From contig OZ017767.1 in the NCBI GenBank assembly GCA_963969345.1, positions 11,104,471 to 11,168,470 on the forward strand: a stretch of 64,000 bases of DNA, in the 5' to 3' direction. A program made the position numbers and the translations under genes. Positions within the stretch are counted from its first letter, which is position 1, and every line of letters starts with the position of its first letter. Positions 11,437 to 53,144 of the stretch are shown piece by piece. Source of the stretch: Turbatrix aceti. Taxonomy: Eukaryota; Nematoda; Chromadorea; Rhabditida; Panagrolaimidae. The notes under the pieces were generated by a model. The model was given only the letters and a program-made list of their open reading frames with translations, made no database searches and had not been told where the DNA came from.

Positions 11437-13046
11437 ATGCTCAAAATGTTGAGGGTCTTGACGCTACTTTTTTTGGCTTTTGGATTTGTAAGGGGATTTT
11501 TCTTCAACACAAGTCCAAATTGCAATTGTCAGCCGGCCGCTCCGCCACCACCCTGCTCGGCTCCCAGACCTCCAAGTTGTGGGGGGTCGAGCAGCTATGC
11601 GCCCTTCCAATACGGCCCCCCTCCACCCCCGCCCCAGACTTTTGTACCCCAGCCGGGCCCGGTGCCCATCCCCTACTCCCCCCAGGGACCCTATGCCCCC
11701 CAGGCACCCTACGCACCCCAAGCCCCCTACCTGCCCCAACAATCCTACGTACAGGCTCAACAACAGACCTACTACGGCCCAGCGGCTCCCATCGTTCAGC
11801 CTGTGGCAACTGAAGGCTACACCCTTCCAACCGACGCTGAAAGCGCTATTGCAGCTCCTGGAACCTCACCAAACGATGAACCTATCGAAGACTCCAGGTA
11901 CAATCAACATGATCAGGACCTGGAATCACCTGGATCTGAAGACCAGGTAAGCGGTGTTAAAACTGTTTTCTATAAAAAAATTTTGTTGTAGAATATGTTA
12001 CAAACCGAAAGCGATCTCTTCCAGGCAAGGCTTTGCATTCCGGTTATATTTTTTGCCGCTTAAATGCCGTTTAAATGCAAATTTGCAAAATAACCGACAT
12101 TATACGGTCGAATATTGCTGGCCGCTTATATCGCAAAAAATAACCGGGTAGGATATGAAGTTAGAATAAAGTCAAAGAAAATAACCGTCTCAGTTTTGGA
12201 CAGGTTGCATAAAAATTTGAAAATAACCGAGTCATTTTTTTCATTTTCAGTCGAATGTCCCCCTTTTTGGTCCAAATTTGCACGCTTATTTTACGTTTTT
12301 TATGCGGTTCATGATTTAGGGGGACGGTTAAAAAAGTCGAAAATAACCGCCGTATAACCCGGTTATTTTAAGTCGCGGAAAATAACCGGGCCGTATAACC
12401 CGGTTATTTTCGGGAAATGAAAATAACCGAATAACCGACCCGGTTATTCGTCATTCCGTTCCGCTTCGTTATATAACCGGAATGCAAAGCCTTGCTTCCA
12501 GGAATACGATGACGTAGTTGAGGGTCGAAAAGCAGTACACGCGGCCAAGAAAAATAAACCTCACAAAAAACCGTCAATTAAAGACGCCACCGACGATGTT
12601 GACGATTTTTTTGAAGCCGGAAAAAGTGTGATTTCCACGATCAAGCCAGGTGTGATGCACGACGACGACGGCAGAGACTTTGGCGACGAGGAGGTTCAGG
12701 AAAACTTTCAAATGGATGCCAGAACACCTGTTCATGACAGGGTCAACGACGAGGAAGATGCGGATGATGATGTCAGGTGCGCGAGTCAGGAGTTGAAGTT
12801 GCTGATGGCTAATGTGAGTTTCAAAAATTTAAAATTATTTTTTTCGGCATTATAATTTTTTAGAACATTGTTTCGTCTCCAACAATCTCCAAACAACTGA
12901 TCTTCAGCGCCGGAAAAAAGCATTTCAAAAAGTCGGTCGACGTTGTTTGTTCACGCAACAAATTTAGTTATACAGTCGTGTCAAGCAAAGTTTACTGCGA
13001 AATAACCAGGGCCCCAGTCACGTGCTTTGCATTCTTCCAGCCATGA
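11437..13046 (+). CDS. secreted ground-like (Grd) domain protein interrupted by a MITE-derived intron
   Basis: The model uses 11437-11946, 11992-12024, 12502-12813 and 12864-13046, all phase 0, 345 aa. A signal peptide (MLKMLRVLTLLFLAFGFVRG) leads into a Pro/Gln/Tyr-rich region (GPYAPQAPY repeats), an acidic linker and a C-terminal Grd domain. That domain starts near CASQELKLLMANNIVSSPT and contains VVCSRNKFSYTVV and a final CFAFFQP. Grd proteins are secreted, hedgehog-related nematode proteins, many linked to cuticle or sensory-organ matrix. A 469-bp transposon sits inside what was the second exon. Reading across the site without the element and one duplication copy gives an open frame; without splicing, a stop follows 14 codons into the element and the Grd domain is lost. 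The start could also be the ATG at 11446. Confidence 0.82.
12026..12494 (+). mobile_element. hAT-like MITE, family 2 (469 bp), probable GC-AG intron
   Basis: Terminal inverted repeats are CAAGGCTTTGCATTCCGG / CCGGAATGCAAAGCCTTG, flanked by the 8-bp duplication CTTCCAGG (12018-12025 and 12495-12502). There is no transposase. The interior holds a dozen or so copies of ATAACCG/CGGTTAT, several joined as palindromes such as AACCCGGTT. The left junction reads CCAG|GCAAGG and the right reads GCTTCCAG|GAAT, so cutting at 12025 and 12501 removes the element plus one duplication copy and rebuilds the exon exactly. Confidence 0.92.
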
Positions 13047-43851: not shown

Positions 43852-44106
43852 TTACTTTCCGAAACCGGGGCGAACCGGAACGGGGCGAAGGGGTGGCGGA
43901 GGAGGTCGGAAAACCGGAGGAGGTGCTCTCACAGGAGGAGGAGGGGGAGCTCTCACGGCGGCTTTGATTTGTTGTTTCTCGATGGCACGCGTAGCTGCCT
44001 GGAGTCTCTGCTTTTCGAGCTCGAGTTGGGCCACACGTGAAAGCTGACCGCTGACGGAGACGAAGAGGGCGCAGAAGATGAGGACAAGGATGCTGAAGAC
44101 CTTCAT
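43852..44106 (-). CDS. small secreted proline-rich peptide
   Basis: One exon of 84 aa. A signal peptide (MKVFSILVLIFCALFVSVSG) is followed by a charged helix QLSRVAQLELEKQRLQAATR and a Pro/Arg tail (APPPPPVRAPPPVFRPPPPP) ending RPGFGK. A TATA box lies at 44161. Pro/Arg-rich tails occur in some antimicrobial peptides and in cuticle peptides; neither role can be shown here. Confidence 0.7.
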   Translation of the reverse strand: MKVFSILVLIFCALFVSVSGQLSRVAQLELEKQRLQAATRAIEKQQIKAAVRAPPPPPVRAPPPVFRPPPPPLRPVPVRPGFGK

Positions 44107-44160
44107 GTTGGGTGCTGTACCAAACAACAGGTAGGTGGTGATCATTGCAAATTTTCTTTC

Positions 44161-44169
44161 CTTTATATA
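44161..44169 (-). promoter_or_regulatory. TATA box of the proline-rich peptide gene
   Basis: TATATAAAG on the minus strand, about 55 bp upstream of the ATG. Confidence 0.6.
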
Positions 44170-44575
44170 CTCTTTTGACTTCCGAGGCCTTTGCACCCTA
44201 TTAATTATTGGTTGTCATAGATCAACGTTAACGTGTTCCAGTAAGTACTCATGTGTCCTCGTTGTAGTCTAGGTATAAACGTACATACACTACTTTTTGA
44301 CATGCATCTTTTTTTCCATTGCTTTCATTAACGCTGATCGTTGATTAGTGAGATTAATGACCGATAAGTGGAAGTAGTTTAGCGTACGCCTTTTGTGCAA
44401 ATGACTTGTTTGCTGAAGAATTGTGCGTCAGATGGATGCGTAGAAATTTGAGTTTAACTTTTTTATGATTTTATTTTGTCTATAAACAGACAAAATAAAA
44501 TTGTGCGTCAGACTTTCTTCCTTATCGTTGTGATTCAAATTCTCTTATCATTTTATCATTACGTCCGGTTGTTAA

Positions 44576-46597
44576 CTACGCGGCAAGAAAGAAAGTTGTT
44601 AGCACTAAAACAAAGAATGTGACAAGACTGAGGGAAGCCGCATGAGAAGCTCCTCCGATCGTTACTGTTGCCGCTGGAGTGGGAAGTTGTAGCGCCGGTT
44701 CAAACTTATTATAGTCGTGCTCGCCGTTGAGAAAGTTAACGAGCATCTGCAGTGCCGGGCCTGGACGATCATTAGGTACAAAGTGACCGGATCCCTGTAA
44801 TAATTTTTAAGATCATTCTAATTATGGAATATCGATTCTACCTTGACAGTCAACACGTCGATGTAGAATTTATCATTGGTACCGTTGACGTTTGTGTAGT
44901 AGTTTTGGTAATAGCCAGCCAGACGTTGTCGGAAGTTCCACGTTGTTCGATCTTCTTTTTGGAATCCCCATGTTTTGGCAATGTTGTCGATGTGCCAAGC
45001 ATCACCTAAGAAATTGCAGACTGTATCGACCTGAATATTGGGGCATTATTTATAGCTTTATATTTTCTGAACCCACATCGCCGTTGTAGACAAGCACGTG
45101 GAATCCGGGGACAGGTGTGTCTGGCATAGTAGCAATGCTAATGATTTTATCAAATTGTGTGTTCGTGTTGAAATATGTGGTGAGGTAGTTTTTGAATAGA
45201 TCATCACTATAAAGTGCTCAATGCCTCAAATAATCAAAAAACATCAACTTACTTGCAGTCCTGCCACTGCACTTCAGATAATATCCAATTTTGGTCAACG
45301 TGGAAAGCATTTTGAACGGCTTCATTGTTAAGGTAGATCGTAGCGCCATTCGCGTTCCAACAAGGGTATCCGAATTGGCTGTCAGTGGAGTTGTAGTTCA
45401 ATGAATTCTGAATTCAGTATTTTTATAACTTTTTGTATAACATCAGTTTACCGCTGTTTGAAGACCACCTGTGTAAGCTGCCCTAACAGTGGGTCTCATG
45501 GTGCGCGCTTGCCGATAGCTTTTTAGCAGCTTGTGTTGGAACGTGCTTTCACCCTGGAACGTGTTTGTCGCATTTGTACCGTAACAGCTTTGATAGAAGT
45601 TATAAGAATCGTAACTGAAAAAAAAAGTTTTTAACCTGCTTTAAAAGAAGTTTGAACCGACTTGCTCATTTGAGCGGGAACGTATTTAGCTGTCAAATTA
45701 CCACAAGCATCAGTTCCGTTATTTCCCTCCGTTCCGACGCTGACGTGTTGTGAAAATTTACAATCTTCTAGGAGATTTACTGTATTGCATCCACAGACAG
45801 CAAGAATTTCAGTCCACTGATCGATTCCGATGAGACCGTGGTAGTAACTCCAGTAAACGAGAGAATCGTACAGTACAGGAACATTCATGTATCCGTTTCC
45901 AATAGCAACACCCTTGAAATTAGAGTTTGGATAACTGCCAGCTACGATAGATTCAAGAATCCTTTGTGTGACAGTAGGGATGTAGATGCCTGCATACGAT
46001 TCGCCAGTGATATACCATGTTCGGTTTTGATATCGTGTCTGGACGCGGGCAAAGAAGTCAGCGATGGCATCGTGATTGAGCTGTGCGGTAAGATCGTCGC
46101 CGACTGTGTACCCGGTGATGTTATCGGTGTCGTATGAAAATCCAACACCGATGGGGGATTCGATTGCTATTACATTAGCTCGCTGAAACTTTTATTCATC
46201 CAACTACTTGTTTTTTTCTACAAACCTTATTCCACGCATAAATGTTCTCATAGAGACTGAGTCCATCCTGATTGACATAGAAAGGACCGAGTTCCTCAAA
46301 CAATCCACCAACTGAACTGCATCCCGGACCACCGGTGAACCAGACGACCAAAGGATCGTTTTCAGGGGTTTCAGACTGCGATTCCACAAGCCAATAAAAC
46401 ATCTTCAAAGTACCATTTTCATTTGCATTCAGGTATCCTGAGTACTGATTAAAGTTGATCTTGAATGTCACATTGGGCAGAAGCGTGATCCTATCGTCTT
46501 CACCAATAGCCAGGATAGGCGACGTCAGCAACGACAAAATGACACATCCGGTAACGAAGCTCAAACTCGCAATTGTCTGCAACCAAGTTGCCGCCAT
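44576..46597 (-). CDS. serine carboxypeptidase (S10), copy 1
   Basis: Seven exons (46597-46226, 46182-45662, 45614-45452, 45407-45253, 45206-45077, 45030-44842, 44794-44576) give 582 aa. A signal peptide is followed by the substrate-binding start DDRITLLPNVTFKINFNQYS, the oxyanion motif TGGPGCSS, and the catalytic triad in GESYAG (Ser), YNGDVD (Asp) and KGSGHFVPNDRP (His). Many Asn-x-Ser/Thr sites suggest glycosylation. The C-terminus is a hydrophobic tail (SLVTFFVLVLTTFFLAA) that could be a GPI signal or membrane anchor. S10 enzymes trim C-terminal residues in lysosomes or the gut lumen. It is the last of three tandem copies on the minus strand. Confidence 0.93.
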
Positions 46598-46970
46598 TGT
46601 AGGAAACACAAATGAGAAGAGCTTGTCAGTCAAACAAAGCAAGCATTCCTCCTCAATCTCTTCTTATCACGTCTTACTCTGGGGTGTGGCGACCATCGGG
46701 AAACGCGGATGAAATCATTAATGGTAGTATGTAAGGTTTCAGCTTCTCTCGTATCGGATGGGGGACGGGGGCAGAGGTAACAATTTTTTTATAGTTGGCG
46801 TTGCTTTTTTGTTTTTTTTGGCCAAACGTGAAAATTTGGTCTGATGTTGAAGACGATGACGCAGATATTTATAGTGATAAAATTATATGTCTCATATCTT
46901 TTGATGCTTCAAAGTGTTTGTATTTTACAACCTTTTCAATTGTTGCACTTTTAGCATTATCAAGCGTTAA

Positions 46971-49005
46971 TTACATGGCTAGAAACAATGTTGTTAGCAC
47001 AAAAGCGAAGAATGTGACAAGACTGAAGGAAGCCGCATGAGAAGCTCCTCCGATCGTTACTGTTGCCGCTGGAGTGGGAAGTTGTAGCGCCGGTTCAAAC
47101 TTATTATAGTCGTGCTCGCCGTTGAGAAAGTTAACGAGCATCTGCAGTGCCGGGCCTGGACGATCATTAGGTACAAAGTGACCGGATCCCTGTAATAATT
47201 TTTAAGATCATTCTAATTGTAGAATATCGATTCTACCTTGACAGTCAACACGTCGATGTAGAATTTATCATTGGTACCGTTGACGTTTGTGTAGTAGTTT
47301 TGGTAATAGCCAGCCAAACGTTCACGGAAGTTCCACGTTGTGCGATCTTCTTTTTGGAATCCCCATGTTTTGGTAATGTTGTCGATGTGCCAAGCATCAC
47401 CTAAGAAATTGCAGACGGTGTCAACCTGAATATTGGAATATTATTTATGGATTTATATTATATTATCTGAACCCACATCGCCGTTGTAGACAAGCACGTG
47501 GAATCCGGGGACAGGCGTATTCGGCATGGTAGCAATGCTGATGATTTTATCAAATTGTGTGTTCGTGTTCCAGTATGTAGTGGGATAGTTATAGCCTATC
47601 GGATCACTGTAAAATAGGTGTGCATTAAATGTTCATAACTGCAGGTAAGTAACACTGAAACTTACCTGCAGTCCTCCCAAACTGTTTCAGATAGAATCCA
47701 AGTTTGGTCAATGTGGAAAGCATTTTGAACAGCTTCATTATTGAGATAAATTTCAACACCATCCTCGTTCCAGCACGGGTATCCGAATTGACTGTCTGTG
47801 GAATTGTAGTTTAACGAATTCTAAATATTAGTTCTGATGCTACTTCTCAGATATTTAATAACTTACCGCTGTTTGAAGACCTCCTGTATAAGCTGCTCTA
47901 ACAGCGGGTCTCAAAAGACGTTCTTTTCTGTAGTTTTTAAGCAGCTGATGTTGAGTTGTGCTTTTACTCTTGAATGTGTTTGTTGCATTTGTACCGTAAC
48001 AACTTTGATAGAAGTTATATGAGTCGTAGCTAAAAATTTGGGTCATTTACCGACTAAAAATAATTTTAAACTTACTAGCTTTCTTGATTTGGAATGTATT
48101 CATTGGTGAGGTCTCCACAATCATTTGTGCCATTGTAAGTATTGAAGTCAATATGCTGTGAAAATTTACAATCTTCTAGGAGATTTACTGTATTGCATCC
48201 ACATACAGCAAGAATTTCAGTCCACTGATCGATTCCGATGAGACCGTGGTAGTAACTCCAGTAAACGAGAGAATCGTACAGTACAGGAACATTCATGTAT
48301 CCGTTTCCAATAGCAACACCCTTGAAATTAGAGTTTGGATAACTGCCAGCTACGATAGATTCCAGAATCCTTTGTGTGACAGTAGGGATGTAGATGCCTG
48401 CATACGATTCGCCAGTGATATACCATGTTCGGTTTTGATATCGTGTCTGGACGCGGGCAAAGAAGTCAGCGATGGCATCGTGATTGAGCTGTGCGGTAAG
48501 ATCGTCGCCGACTGTGTACCCGGTGATGTTATCGGTGTCGTATGAAAATCCAACACCGATGGGGGATTCGATTGCTATTACATTAGCTCGCTGAAACTTT
48601 TATTCATCCAACTACTTGTTTTTTTCTACAAACCTTATTCCACGCATAAATGTTCTCATAGAGACTGAGTCCATCCTGATTGACATAGAAAGGACCGAGT
48701 TCTTCAAACAATCCACCGACTGAACTGCATCCCGGACCACCTGTGAACCAAACGACCAAAGGATCGTTTTCAGGGGTTTCAGACTGCGATTCCACAAGCC
48801 AATAAAACATCTTCAAAGTACCATTTTCATTAGCATTCAGGTATCCTGAGTACTGATTAAAGTTGATCTTGAATGTCACATTGGGCAGAAGCGTGATCCT
48901 ATCGTCTTCACCAATAGCCAGGATGGGCGACGTCAGCAACGACAAAATGACACATCCGGTAACGAAGCTTAAGCGCGCAGTAGTCTGCAACCGAACTGCA
49001 GCCAT
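46971..49005 (-). CDS. serine carboxypeptidase (S10), copy 2
   Basis: Seven exons parallel to copy 1, running from the ATG at 49005 to the TAA at 46971. The signal peptide region is MAAVRLQTTARLSFVTGCV. The oxyanion motif TGGPGCSS, GESYAG, YNGD and GSGH are all present, and the C-terminus is a hydrophobic tail ending LFLAM. The first exon, the first intron and most of the second exon are nearly identical to copy 1, while the exon 2 end and the third exon differ clearly (HIDFNTYNGTNDCGDLTNEY versus HVSVGTEGNNGTDACGNLTA). This patchiness points to gene conversion. Expected to be active. Confidence 0.92.
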
Positions 49006-49678
49006 TGTCGCAATCACTACTGAGTGCTCGCAACACGATGCTTTTAGCGATTTAAGCATGTTTCTTAGATGGGTTATCACCTTTTCTTCCGTATGGGTGT
49101 GGTGTCAACCAATTTATTGTTTAATGAAAGGATGCATTTTATGGTTTTTTTGTTTATTGCACTCTTTTTTTCACAGGAAAAGTATATGAAGGGAAGGAAG
49201 CCATAATTGATTGTATTATGTTTGCATTGTAGCCAAATTATTGTCATTCACACTTGCGTGGCAAGCTTTACGACTTAGTTCACGGTTATCAAACATGCTT
49301 TCTTATCAGACGGTTATTTTTGACATTTTTTTATTGAAGCATCCGGAGATGGATCAGCGATAGTAAAAATACTTTATTTTTGAATTCCGATTTTTTTATT
49401 GACGCACTAGCTATAGGGAAATCACGTCATGCTTTTTAGCTAATCTGTTTACCTCTTGTCAGTCACCCCGACTATGATTGTTATCATTCGAGATACACAA
49501 GCTTTAAAGGTATTTCTATGAGTCACAATCAAGAAGTCATGCTCCGTTCACGGTGGCTGCAGGTTGGGGGAGCTGTAGATCGGGGTCAAATTTGCTGTAA
49601 TCATGGGTACCGTTCAGAAAGTTGACAAGCATCTGAAGCGCAGGTCCGGGTCGGTCGTTTGGAACCATGTGTCCTGAT

Positions 49679-50045
49679 CAGGGTGGCGAAGAGGGGATTC
49701 CCATGGGAGTCCCATGGGAAATATCCCGGGAATTATCCCGGGATTCCCATCTATCACGGGATAATTCCCCACGGAATTTTGAAAATGCGCGATCCCGCCT
49801 AAAATATCACCGTTATTTTACGCAGGAGCGTGTTTTTTTCTTTCAAATTAGGGAAATGATTTTATTTTCATTGTTGATTTTATTACATTAATAAAATAAG
49901 TGTGTTTTTGGATACCTTTTTTGTATAAACATGTACTTTTTTAAACGTACCAAAAAATACCCCCGGGGACTCCCATGGGACTCCCATGGGAATCCCATGG
50001 GATAATTCCCTTATTTCTAATTCCCATGGGAGTTTCGCCACCCTG
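49679..50045 (-). mobile_element. hAT-like MITE, family 1, copy B (367 bp)
   Basis: Inverted termini CAGGGTGGCGAA / TTCGCCACCCTG with the 8-bp duplication GTCCTGAT at 49671-49678 and 50046-50053. The sequence is the reverse complement of the element at 3008-3374, with no difference found by eye over 367 bp. It lies in the last exon of carboxypeptidase copy 3, ten bases after the exon start. Seamless splicing is not available: the 5' junction would be GA, not GT or GC. Confidence 0.95.
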
Positions 50046-51572
50046 GTCCTGATCCCTGTAATGACACAGTAGTTTGTGTTATCTGAAGATACCGAGGACT
50101 TTATACCTTCACAGTGACGACGTCAATGTAGAAGTTGTCCGTGCTTCCTGCAACTGGCTTTGAAAATGTCTGAGCGAACCCTGCTAAGCGTTGTCGGAAG
50201 TTCCATTGACTTCGGTCCGTGGATGTGAAATTGTGAGTCTTCGTGATGTTGTCGAGATGCCAAGCATCTCCGAGGAAGTTACACACCGTATCTACCTACA
50301 TTTTTGTTACGCAAAATATCTTTGTTTTTTCAACTCACGTCTCCATTGTAAACCAAAACTCTGAAATTGGGTACAACACTAGTTTGCGTAGCGACTTGGA
50401 TAATCTCGTCAAATTGTTCGTTCGTAGTGATGTACGTCATGTTATAGCTGTTGAAGAGGTCATTGCTAGATAAGAAAGTCAAATATATCGATTAGATAAA
50501 TAGTGAAAATTCCTACTTGCACGATTGCCACGTTGTTTCAGACAGGATCCAAGTTTCATCGACATGTATTGCTTCTTGGACGTCCCTTCGATTCAGGTAC
50601 GTGTGTGCCGCGTATCCATTCCAGCACGGATACCCGAATTGGTTGTCGGTAGAGTTATAGTTTATATAATTCTGAAACAGTCCACGTTTTTGAAGACGCT
50701 AGGCTTAATGACAAACTAACCGCAGTTTGTAGTGGTCCACTTCGAGCTGCTTTTGGACCAGGAATATGTTGATAATTCAACAAGGCGTGATAATTTTTAG
50801 TTGACGACGCATCGGCTGCATTACCGTAACAACTTTGGTAAAAGTTGTAGGGATCGTAACTGAAAACACCCATGTATGTTGTATTTCAACTTTTCCTTAC
50901 TTGTCGGCTGCTTCGTGAGGGACGTATCCTGTGGCGAGCTCGCCACATTTGTCGTTTCCAGGAAATGAAAAGTTATACAAGTTGACGTGACTCGAAAACT
51001 TGCAGTCATTAATTGTGCTTACTGTGTTGCAGTTACACGTATATAGAAGATCTTTCCATTGGTCTATTCCGATGATACCGTGGTAATAGCTCCAGTAGAC
51101 GAGGCTGTCAAACAAGGCACCGACGTTCATGTAGCCGTTGCCAATGGCGATGCCTTTGAAGTTTTCGTTTGGAAAACTGCCGTTCTGAATGGATTCCAGA
51201 ACCCGGGTAGTCAGGGTAGGAATGTAGACTCCGGCATACGATTCACCTGTGATGTACCAAGATCGGTTTTGGTACTGAGGCTGAACACGAGCGAAGAAGT
51301 CGGCAAGGGCGTCGTGGTTTAGCTTGGCAATGTTGTCATCACCGGTGATTACCTCGGAAATGTTGTCTGCGTTGTAGGAAAACCCTGTTCCAATTGGGGA
51401 TTCAATGAATAGGAGGTTGGCCCGCTGAAAAACATAGCTTAGGAATTCGAAGTTCAAAATGTTTAACCTTATTCCACCCATAAATATTTTCATAGAGACT
51501 TTGACCATCCTGATTGACGTAAAACGGTCCCAGTTCAGCAAACATGCCGAATAGACCACTGCACCCGGGGCG

Positions 51573-51638
51573 GGGCATTCTGCTGAAGTCCCTCTGGCTG
51601 TGGATCCACACAGCCAGAAGGTCTTCAGCAGAATGCCC
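51573..51638. repeat. 66-bp palindrome in a coding exon
   Basis: GGGCATTCTGCTGAAG at the left is repeated inverted as CTTCAGCAGAATGCCC at the right. Arms are about 30 bp with two mismatches around a short GATCC centre. It lies in exon 1 of carboxypeptidase copy 3 where copies 1 and 2 have no palindrome. It is the kind of product expected from a template switch during replication. Confidence 0.85.
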
Positions 51639-51851
51639 TGACTGGGACTCAAGCAACCAGTAGAAAACTTTTAGCGAACCGTTATTGCCGCCGTCCAGGT
51701 ACCCGGAATATTGATTGAAGTCGATTTTAAACGTGACATCGGGAAGTAGTGTTATCCTATCGTATTCGCCAACACATTCTGCCGTTGGTAACACAATTGA
51801 GGCAATAATTGTTGCGATGACGACGAGTGTCCTCAACCATATTCCGGCCAT

Positions 51852-53144
51852 GGTGGGGAAGAGCAGTGAGACAAATAAAATAAGCAATTCAGCTCAATTC
51901 TGTTAGTTGTCGTCTTATCAATGATTTTTGCACAACTCTGATCGGAATGCATTGACTGAAAATTTGTCATTGCCTTGGATACATTTTTGCAACGGACAAT
52001 TGTTTATGAATACTCCATTAAAAAATAGTGCAGTTGTGTTTATAGAAAAACGCTGATATCACAAAAAAATATAAAAAACACATAAACATTACCGACTAAA
52101 AAAACAAACAATTGTAAACAATGGACTTTCAAGTTATTGTATAATTGTTACAACATAAAATTGCTATCAATTGACATTATGCTGAATAAGAGTTTTGGGT
52201 TTTTGAGTGTTTTTTTCTGGCCGGAATTCGTAAATTTATCTTTTTTTTATAAATGAATACTACAAAATTATATTTAGTTCAAAAATAAATCCTACAAACC
52301 TACAAACATTAATTGCTCCGAAGACCCTACCCGGACCCGAAAATTTCGGGTACCCGACCCGAAAACTCTAAATTTCTGCTTTCTGTAAAAAAAACTTCAT
52401 ACATAAAAAAGTTCAAAAACAGATAATCAATTACACGTACAACACACAATGGACACTCAGAAGATGATGATAGCCGATCTTACGTAGAGGAGCTCATCCG
52501 GAACATATGCCGGGGCCGATGTACGCCAAATCTAGTTGAGCAACTTAATGTCCAGTCGCACCAAAGAGCTTGCCTTGCGTGATGAGCTTCTCTCGTCCGA
52601 GTTCGGGTCGGGTACCCGACAGCACTGTGTATTTCTATGATTATGGTGGCCGAGTTGAATTGTGTGACATAACCCTTTGCTGTATCCTAAAACAAAAAAA
52701 TTTTTTTATTGTTCTGGATACATTTTTTCGATGTGAAAATTATATTACAATTGGGAAGTGTGAATTTTTTTGCAAGTCGACGGACAGTACATGAGCTTTA
52801 GCATCGCTTTTAAAGTTTAAACTAGGTTTTGACATTGCTAAGGTTCTTATCAGCAATACTAAAGCACAAACATTAAGTTCAGGGATGTTGGTTTAGGTAT
52901 TCACTTCCTGTGCATCAATGCATTGCTGATAAAATTTTTGACTTTAAAAATCACTTTTTTTATCGCATCTCATACTCTCTTTTTAGGGGGAGGATTTTGT
53001 TATTTTTTAATTGCAAAAAAATACAATGTACTATTTTCCTGAAAAATACAATAGAATGTAAACCCTTTTGATTGAAATTACAGCATTTGGGAATATTTCA
53101 TTGTTAAGCTTCCCCCTCTTTGAATTAATAAAAATTGTTGCGAG
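51852..53144. other. intergenic region with a GGGTACCC repeat
   Basis: AT-rich apart from the repeat at 52325-52631. No gene seen. Confidence 0.4.
52325..52631. repeat. GGGTACCCGA-rich repeat, probable MITE, copy 1
   Basis: Left part has ACCCGGACCCGAAAATTTCG followed by GGTACCCGACCCGAAAACTC. Right part has GAGTTCGGGTCGGGTACCCG then ACAGCACTG. The two blocks are inverted relative to each other about 300 bp apart. A related block lies at 63731-63848, ending ACAACACTG. Exact termini and duplication are unclear. Confidence 0.55.

Follow-up and report, generated by a model that had tools for sequence, protein, structure and literature searches.

A very recent, probably disruptive hAT MITE insertion in a Ground-like gene of Turbatrix aceti, with a candidate latent GC-AG intron

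In Caenorhabditis elegans, Tc1 insertions are partly spliced out of mutant mRNA, and they resemble the locus described here as nematode exon insertions with cryptic splicing around a DNA transposon; they differ in that Tc1 is a Tc1/mariner element with a 2-bp target and in that its splicing is imprecise. Maize Ds elements, in turn, make 8-bp duplications. Ds (hAT) elements acting as introns are the subject of Dennis 1988, Wessler 1991 and Giroux 1994, going by their titles in the reference list of PMC3260210, and on those titles Ds is likewise a small non-autonomous hAT element in an exon that can be removed from RNA, the difference being that splicing is reported there, whereas here it is predicted, in a nematode and with a GC donor that arises at the junction.

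With regard to intron gain more generally, introner families in which the target duplication supplies one of the splice sites or both are described in PMC9860276, in the main text of which the string 'nematod' has 0 occurrences. As characterised there, they share with our element a non-autonomous DNA transposon structure, terminal inverted repeats (TIRs), target duplications and splice sites partly derived from the duplication, while yielding many introns per family, whereas in the present family the geometry is known from a single coding copy among 28 full ones, its splicing being predicted. A 2012 review (PMC3443670) describes, as a mechanism of intron gain, the insertion of a transposon at AGGT, whose two copies then act as donor and acceptor: as at our locus, the duplicated site gives acceptor and donor and removal restores the coding sequence, while here the element supplies the second donor base (GC, not GT). 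A table of that review names Caenorhabditis for tandem duplication and for intronization, not for transposon insertion, and a survey of intron gain and loss in nematodes (PMC9169325) discusses why the source sequences of gained introns went unfound. A literature search for a hAT introner in a nematode gave no such paper among the matches listed. The locus presented here is a candidate member of this already known kind of intron gain.

The window (the whole stretch of 64,000 nucleotides analysed) holds the element within a predicted Ground-like gene, with the following features (splice-site scores are from a first set of sites, with those from a stricter set in brackets; a slash marks the splice junction):

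11437-11946, plus strand: exon 1 of the Ground-like gene, an open frame ending at a GT donor CAG/GTAAGC, score 7.4
11947-11991, plus strand: predicted 45-nt GT-AG intron 1, acceptor TTGTAG 5.9 (5.4)
11992-12024, plus strand: 33-nt 5' piece of exon 2, encoding NMLQTESDLFQ in phase 0, upstream of the element
12018-12025, plus strand: left target site duplication CTTCCAGG, 8 bp
12025-12026, plus strand: candidate GC donor AG/GCAAGG, made of the last base of the duplication and the first base of the element
12026-12494, plus strand: hAT MITE of 469 bp, with a single departure from the family majority
12026-12049, plus strand: left TIR CAAGGCTTTGCATTCCGGTTATAT, perfect over 24 bp
12061-12063, plus strand: first in-frame stop on retention (TAA), the 13th codon past the junction
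12235-12250, plus strand: decoy acceptor within the element, TTTTTTTCATTTTCAG, 9.2 (8.2); a stop precedes the domain
12304-12319, plus strand: second decoy acceptor, ending in ATTTAG, 8.4 (9.2); a stop precedes the domain
12471-12494, minus strand: right TIR, perfect over 24 bp
12495-12502, plus strand: right target site duplication CTTCCAGG, 8 bp, of which the AG at 12500-12501 is the candidate acceptor, 2.6 (0.8)
12502-12813, plus strand: remainder of exon 2, with an acidic part and the start of the Ground-like domain (frame, Pfam match)
12864-13046, plus strand: last exon, which completes the Ground-like domain and contains the stop (frame, Pfam match)

When 12025-12501 (477 nt, a multiple of three) is taken out as a GC-AG intron, an open frame of 345 aa results, in which the Ground-like domain (PF04155) is matched over profile positions 1-73 of 73 (E 1.5e-16, 61.2 bits, cut-off 35.4). 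The initial annotation had placed the element, its 8-bp duplications and its junctions correctly to the base and within the predicted coding sequence of a Grd (Ground-like) gene, and its reading of the geometry also holds, with an acceptor derived from the duplication and a removal that restores the exon in phase 0 with the full domain. The stop that it predicted in the unspliced element is there and in frame, at the 13th codon after the junction and not at the 14th. By eye, the product of exon 1 has a hydrophobic N-terminus resembling a signal peptide, plus a proline-rich part. Among the gene's eight relatives, seven are nematode proteins by name, including those of Halicephalobus, Aphelenchoides, Acrobeloides and Bursaphelenchus, and the downstream intron (12814-12863) was recovered with 7/8 homologues by spliced protein alignment. 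The acidic stretch around the insertion, used in an attempt to infer the structure before insertion, aligns poorly with the homologues, and a search of the assembly with the joined flanks for a second haplotype with an empty site matched only the two halves of this locus. It is very unlikely that the gene is dispensable or was already non-functional, its transcripts being of no consequence: nine further Ground-like matches in the genome searched (59.9 Mb, 28 contigs) would fit such a reading, but they are only 29-40% identical, the gene is open outside the insertion, and its domain is 74% identical to a Halicephalobus protein (covering 23% of the query).

The element is without coding capacity of its own (the longest stop-to-stop frame wholly within the 469 bp is 87 aa), and at this locus its complementary arm is perfect over 25 nt, since the flanking G and C pair too. 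Searching the genome at the DNA level gave at least 57 candidates, 40 of which were scored, and a TIR pattern search with up to three mismatches gave 80 matches. Exact 8-bp duplications flank 26 of the 28 full-length copies examined, the exceptions being L042 (mismatched) and L048 (an N on one side), and the commonest bases in the duplication are G-T-T-G-C-A-A-C, with both strands counted, which forces a palindrome. The copies are near-identical, 25/28 having 0-5 differences from the majority, and the insertion in the window is very recent, because this copy has a single difference from the majority and is identical to five other copies over the 469 bp, without private changes.

On its sequence relationships the window element is classed as a hAT MITE, because a 3097-bp relative (L067, 1059-4155; C1:11758558-11761654) shares its TIRs, has its own exact 8-bp duplication (AGCGGTAT) and carries a frame encoding the hAT dimerisation domain (PF05699, E 7.3e-11). 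The hAT-like assignment of the initial annotation is thus borne out by these features and by the duplications of the 26 copies, and the alternative that the MITE is not a hAT element was ruled out on the same TIRs, duplication and domain. Transposase for the MITE is likely to be supplied by this relative. Two related elements of 1233 bp (L064:1426-2658 and L069:1254-2486) have a variant end, CGTGG; their flanking 8-mers are one sequence in opposite orientations, and both are probably nested in a larger duplicated unit.

Exact restoration of an exon with a GC donor requires a duplication that ends in AGG on the coding strand. Duplications with AGG, in either orientation, number 2/26, against 1.17 expected from positional base frequencies, and in a genome-wide pattern search with exact element ends AGG directly precedes the end at two places, in the window and in L046. 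AGG preceded the end at 0 of the 11 places with one mismatch in the genome, the search having covered ends with at most one change. The family shows no sign of favouring AGG targets and no introner-like enrichment, and the recurrent splice geometry with many intron-acting copies by which an introner is recognised is not found; a family-wide introner was rejected on the AGG counts. The element is a real repeat, with 28 full copies examined, and across the family the splice geometry, at two places, is roughly as frequent as chance would make it.

Exon status was examined for 25 of the 27 other full copies (all except L006 and L048), with up to five frames per copy. One copy (L058:1501-1969) lies within an exon of a glycosyltransferase 92 (GT92) gene, with Pfam support across the insertion point, and its duplication, GATACAAG, is without AGG. 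Two others, also without AGG, are in likely coding exons: L040:1501-1957, flanked on both sides by frames for a multi-pass membrane protein with no Pfam match, and L059:1501-1969, in a Ly6-like frame that is rich in cysteine and matches QVR below the cut-off. For L043 and L051, which have no Pfam match, insertion in a coding exon is possible only. The proposal that the element creates introns in the manner of introner-like elements finds no support in the rest of the family, with AGG not enriched and the coding-exon copies L058, L040 and L059 lacking the geometry. Taking 0.0225 per strand and a total of four or five coding copies, we calculate a probability of roughly one in ten for the geometry to arise in one or more of them.

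Some further copies deserve mention in their own right. In the second copy with an AGG duplication (L046:1493-1977), ATTTCAGG is followed by TAAAC, and the duplicated site may have been an acceptor or a CAG/GTAAAC donor. A shortened copy (L072:1425-1719) lies within an NRF/acyltransferase gene, with flanking frames that match Acyl_transf_3 at 4-40 (weakly) and 188-314; the middle of the domain seems to be lost beside the element. The copy L006:1501-1969 is within a long open frame which by eye resembles part of a retroelement.

For the scoring of splice sites, homologous proteins were aligned to genes in the window with a small spliced aligner, and 22 donors and 23 acceptors were picked by hand. 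Shifted duplicates and joins judged to be artefacts were dropped from the 42 alignment rows for this first set; where joins shared an acceptor, the shorter was kept even with fewer alignments (in two genes, 47 nt with 9 alignments was preferred to 95 nt with 14). One donor (gagcaa/GTCGG) was dropped and its acceptor kept, one 41-nt intron came from a single earlier alignment round, and three rows with GC donors were dropped (471 nt with 10 alignments, 74 nt with 2 and 88 nt with 2). The stricter set comprises 12 introns of 42-59 nt, each with clear ends and the support of 7 or more alignments, with identical duplicates counted once. Both sets draw on a small number of genes, most of which belong to a single tandem carboxypeptidase family, and the sites, being from near copies, are not independent. 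On the minus strand, positions 44000-52000 of the window hold a tandem array of three serine carboxypeptidase (S10) genes, of which two are very much alike. The 471-nt join was judged a likely artefact at a gene end, and spliced alignment found introns of 115 and 235 nt in a tubulin gene; in view of this join and these introns, the data do not establish that the species lacks GC donors or long introns.

The GC donor is of strong consensus, scoring 7.4 with the first set and 5.3 with the stricter one when the C is left unpenalised, and the GT donor at 11947 scores 5.2 with the stricter set. The acceptor at 12501 is neither comparable with the real acceptors nor the best locally: with the first set, 21 of the 23 real acceptors, each left out in turn, score higher than its 2.6 and two score lower (1.4 and 2.1; range 1.4-11.0), and with the stricter set its 0.8 falls under all 12 left-out values (1.5-9.8). 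The stricter set thus strengthens the verdict against 12501. Besides the two decoys listed above, a third acceptor within the element, TTTTAAG at 12372, scores 5.4 (4.5). All six joins of the two upstream donors to 12250, 12319 and 12372 run into a stop before the domain, and both joins to 12501, from the GC donor and from the GT donor at 11947, reach the Ground-like domain. The predicted RNA fold (z -6.0) places the whole GC donor in paired positions within the TIR stem; such a stem could hide the donor and could also bring the two ends of the element together.

The interpretation in the initial annotation is thus supported in part. Its claim that the MITE appears to have become an intron is unsupported: the copy has no private changes, its acceptor is weak, better decoys lie within it and its donor is in a predicted stem. 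That the GC-AG intron is removed in most transcripts, so that a hAT MITE would have given the gene a functional intron, is in our view unlikely. The exact restoration of phase 0 with an intact Ground-like domain and the AG/GCAAGG donor context favour it, and both the AGGT mechanism (PMC3443670) and the use of duplication-derived splice sites (PMC9860276) offer precedents as described; against it stand the weak acceptor beside strong internal decoys, the donor within the predicted stem, a family without AGG enrichment, a copy that shows no adaptation, and a length of 477 nt compared with 42-59 nt in the 12 strict introns, tempered by the tubulin introns.

The initial annotation overlooked a second in-frame route that needs no GC donor, in which splicing runs from the GT donor at 11947 to the acceptor copy at 12501 and leaves out the 33 nt of 11992-12024. 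Those 33 nt could be intronic, had CTTCCAG been the original acceptor, in which case the insertion would have copied a 3' splice site that was already there and made an old intron longer, with none gained. Such a splice would give a 334-aa product from a donor scoring 7.4, and the shortfall of the putative old acceptor shrinks in the stricter set (4.0 for CTTCCAG at 12024 against 5.4 for TTGTAG at 11991). With the first set, however, 12024 falls below 11991 (2.8 against 5.9), the old intron would have been 78 nt against 45 nt, where the stricter set spans 42-59 nt, and the internal decoys lie between this donor and 12501 after the insertion. TTGTAG is favoured as the original acceptor by intron length and score, modestly in the stricter set, where the contrast between the two is weaker, and we consider the second route improbable.

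The explanation that we favour, and hold to be reasonably probable, is a recent and probably disruptive hAT MITE insertion that carries a latent, possibly minor, precise GC-AG intron. A non-autonomous hAT MITE would have landed very recently in a coding exon of the Ground-like gene, in a target that by chance contained CAG/G. The 45-nt intron 1 would probably still be removed, and the element would then be mostly retained or spliced to the strong internal acceptors at 12250 and 12319; either outcome would bring a premature stop before the Ground-like domain, and such transcripts may be subject to nonsense-mediated decay. The allele is probably reduced or null, because the premature stop precedes the domain either way, while the GC-AG geometry would amount to a latent intron that may give a minor, exactly restored mRNA. 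Arguing against disruption, the gene is intact on precise removal, as a tolerated insertion would leave it, the context of the GC donor equals that of the GT donor at 11947 when the C is unpenalised, and the splice models rest on few genes.

More broadly, the ends of the MITE (CAAGG...CCTTG) might make each insertion after a coding CAG/G a near-consensus, exon-restoring GC-AG intron, with this gene spliced in that way: a de novo intron from the last burst of transposition, in a phylum where the sources of recent gains were hard to find. We regard this as distinctly doubtful. If RNA shows retention or decoy splicing, the locus amounts to an ordinary disruptive MITE insertion and serves as a caution, since chance alone should produce perfect splice geometry at a target duplication roughly once in a family as large as this one. 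Precise splicing in RNA would make the locus a direct, datable case of the birth of an intron from a cut-and-paste transposon in a nematode.
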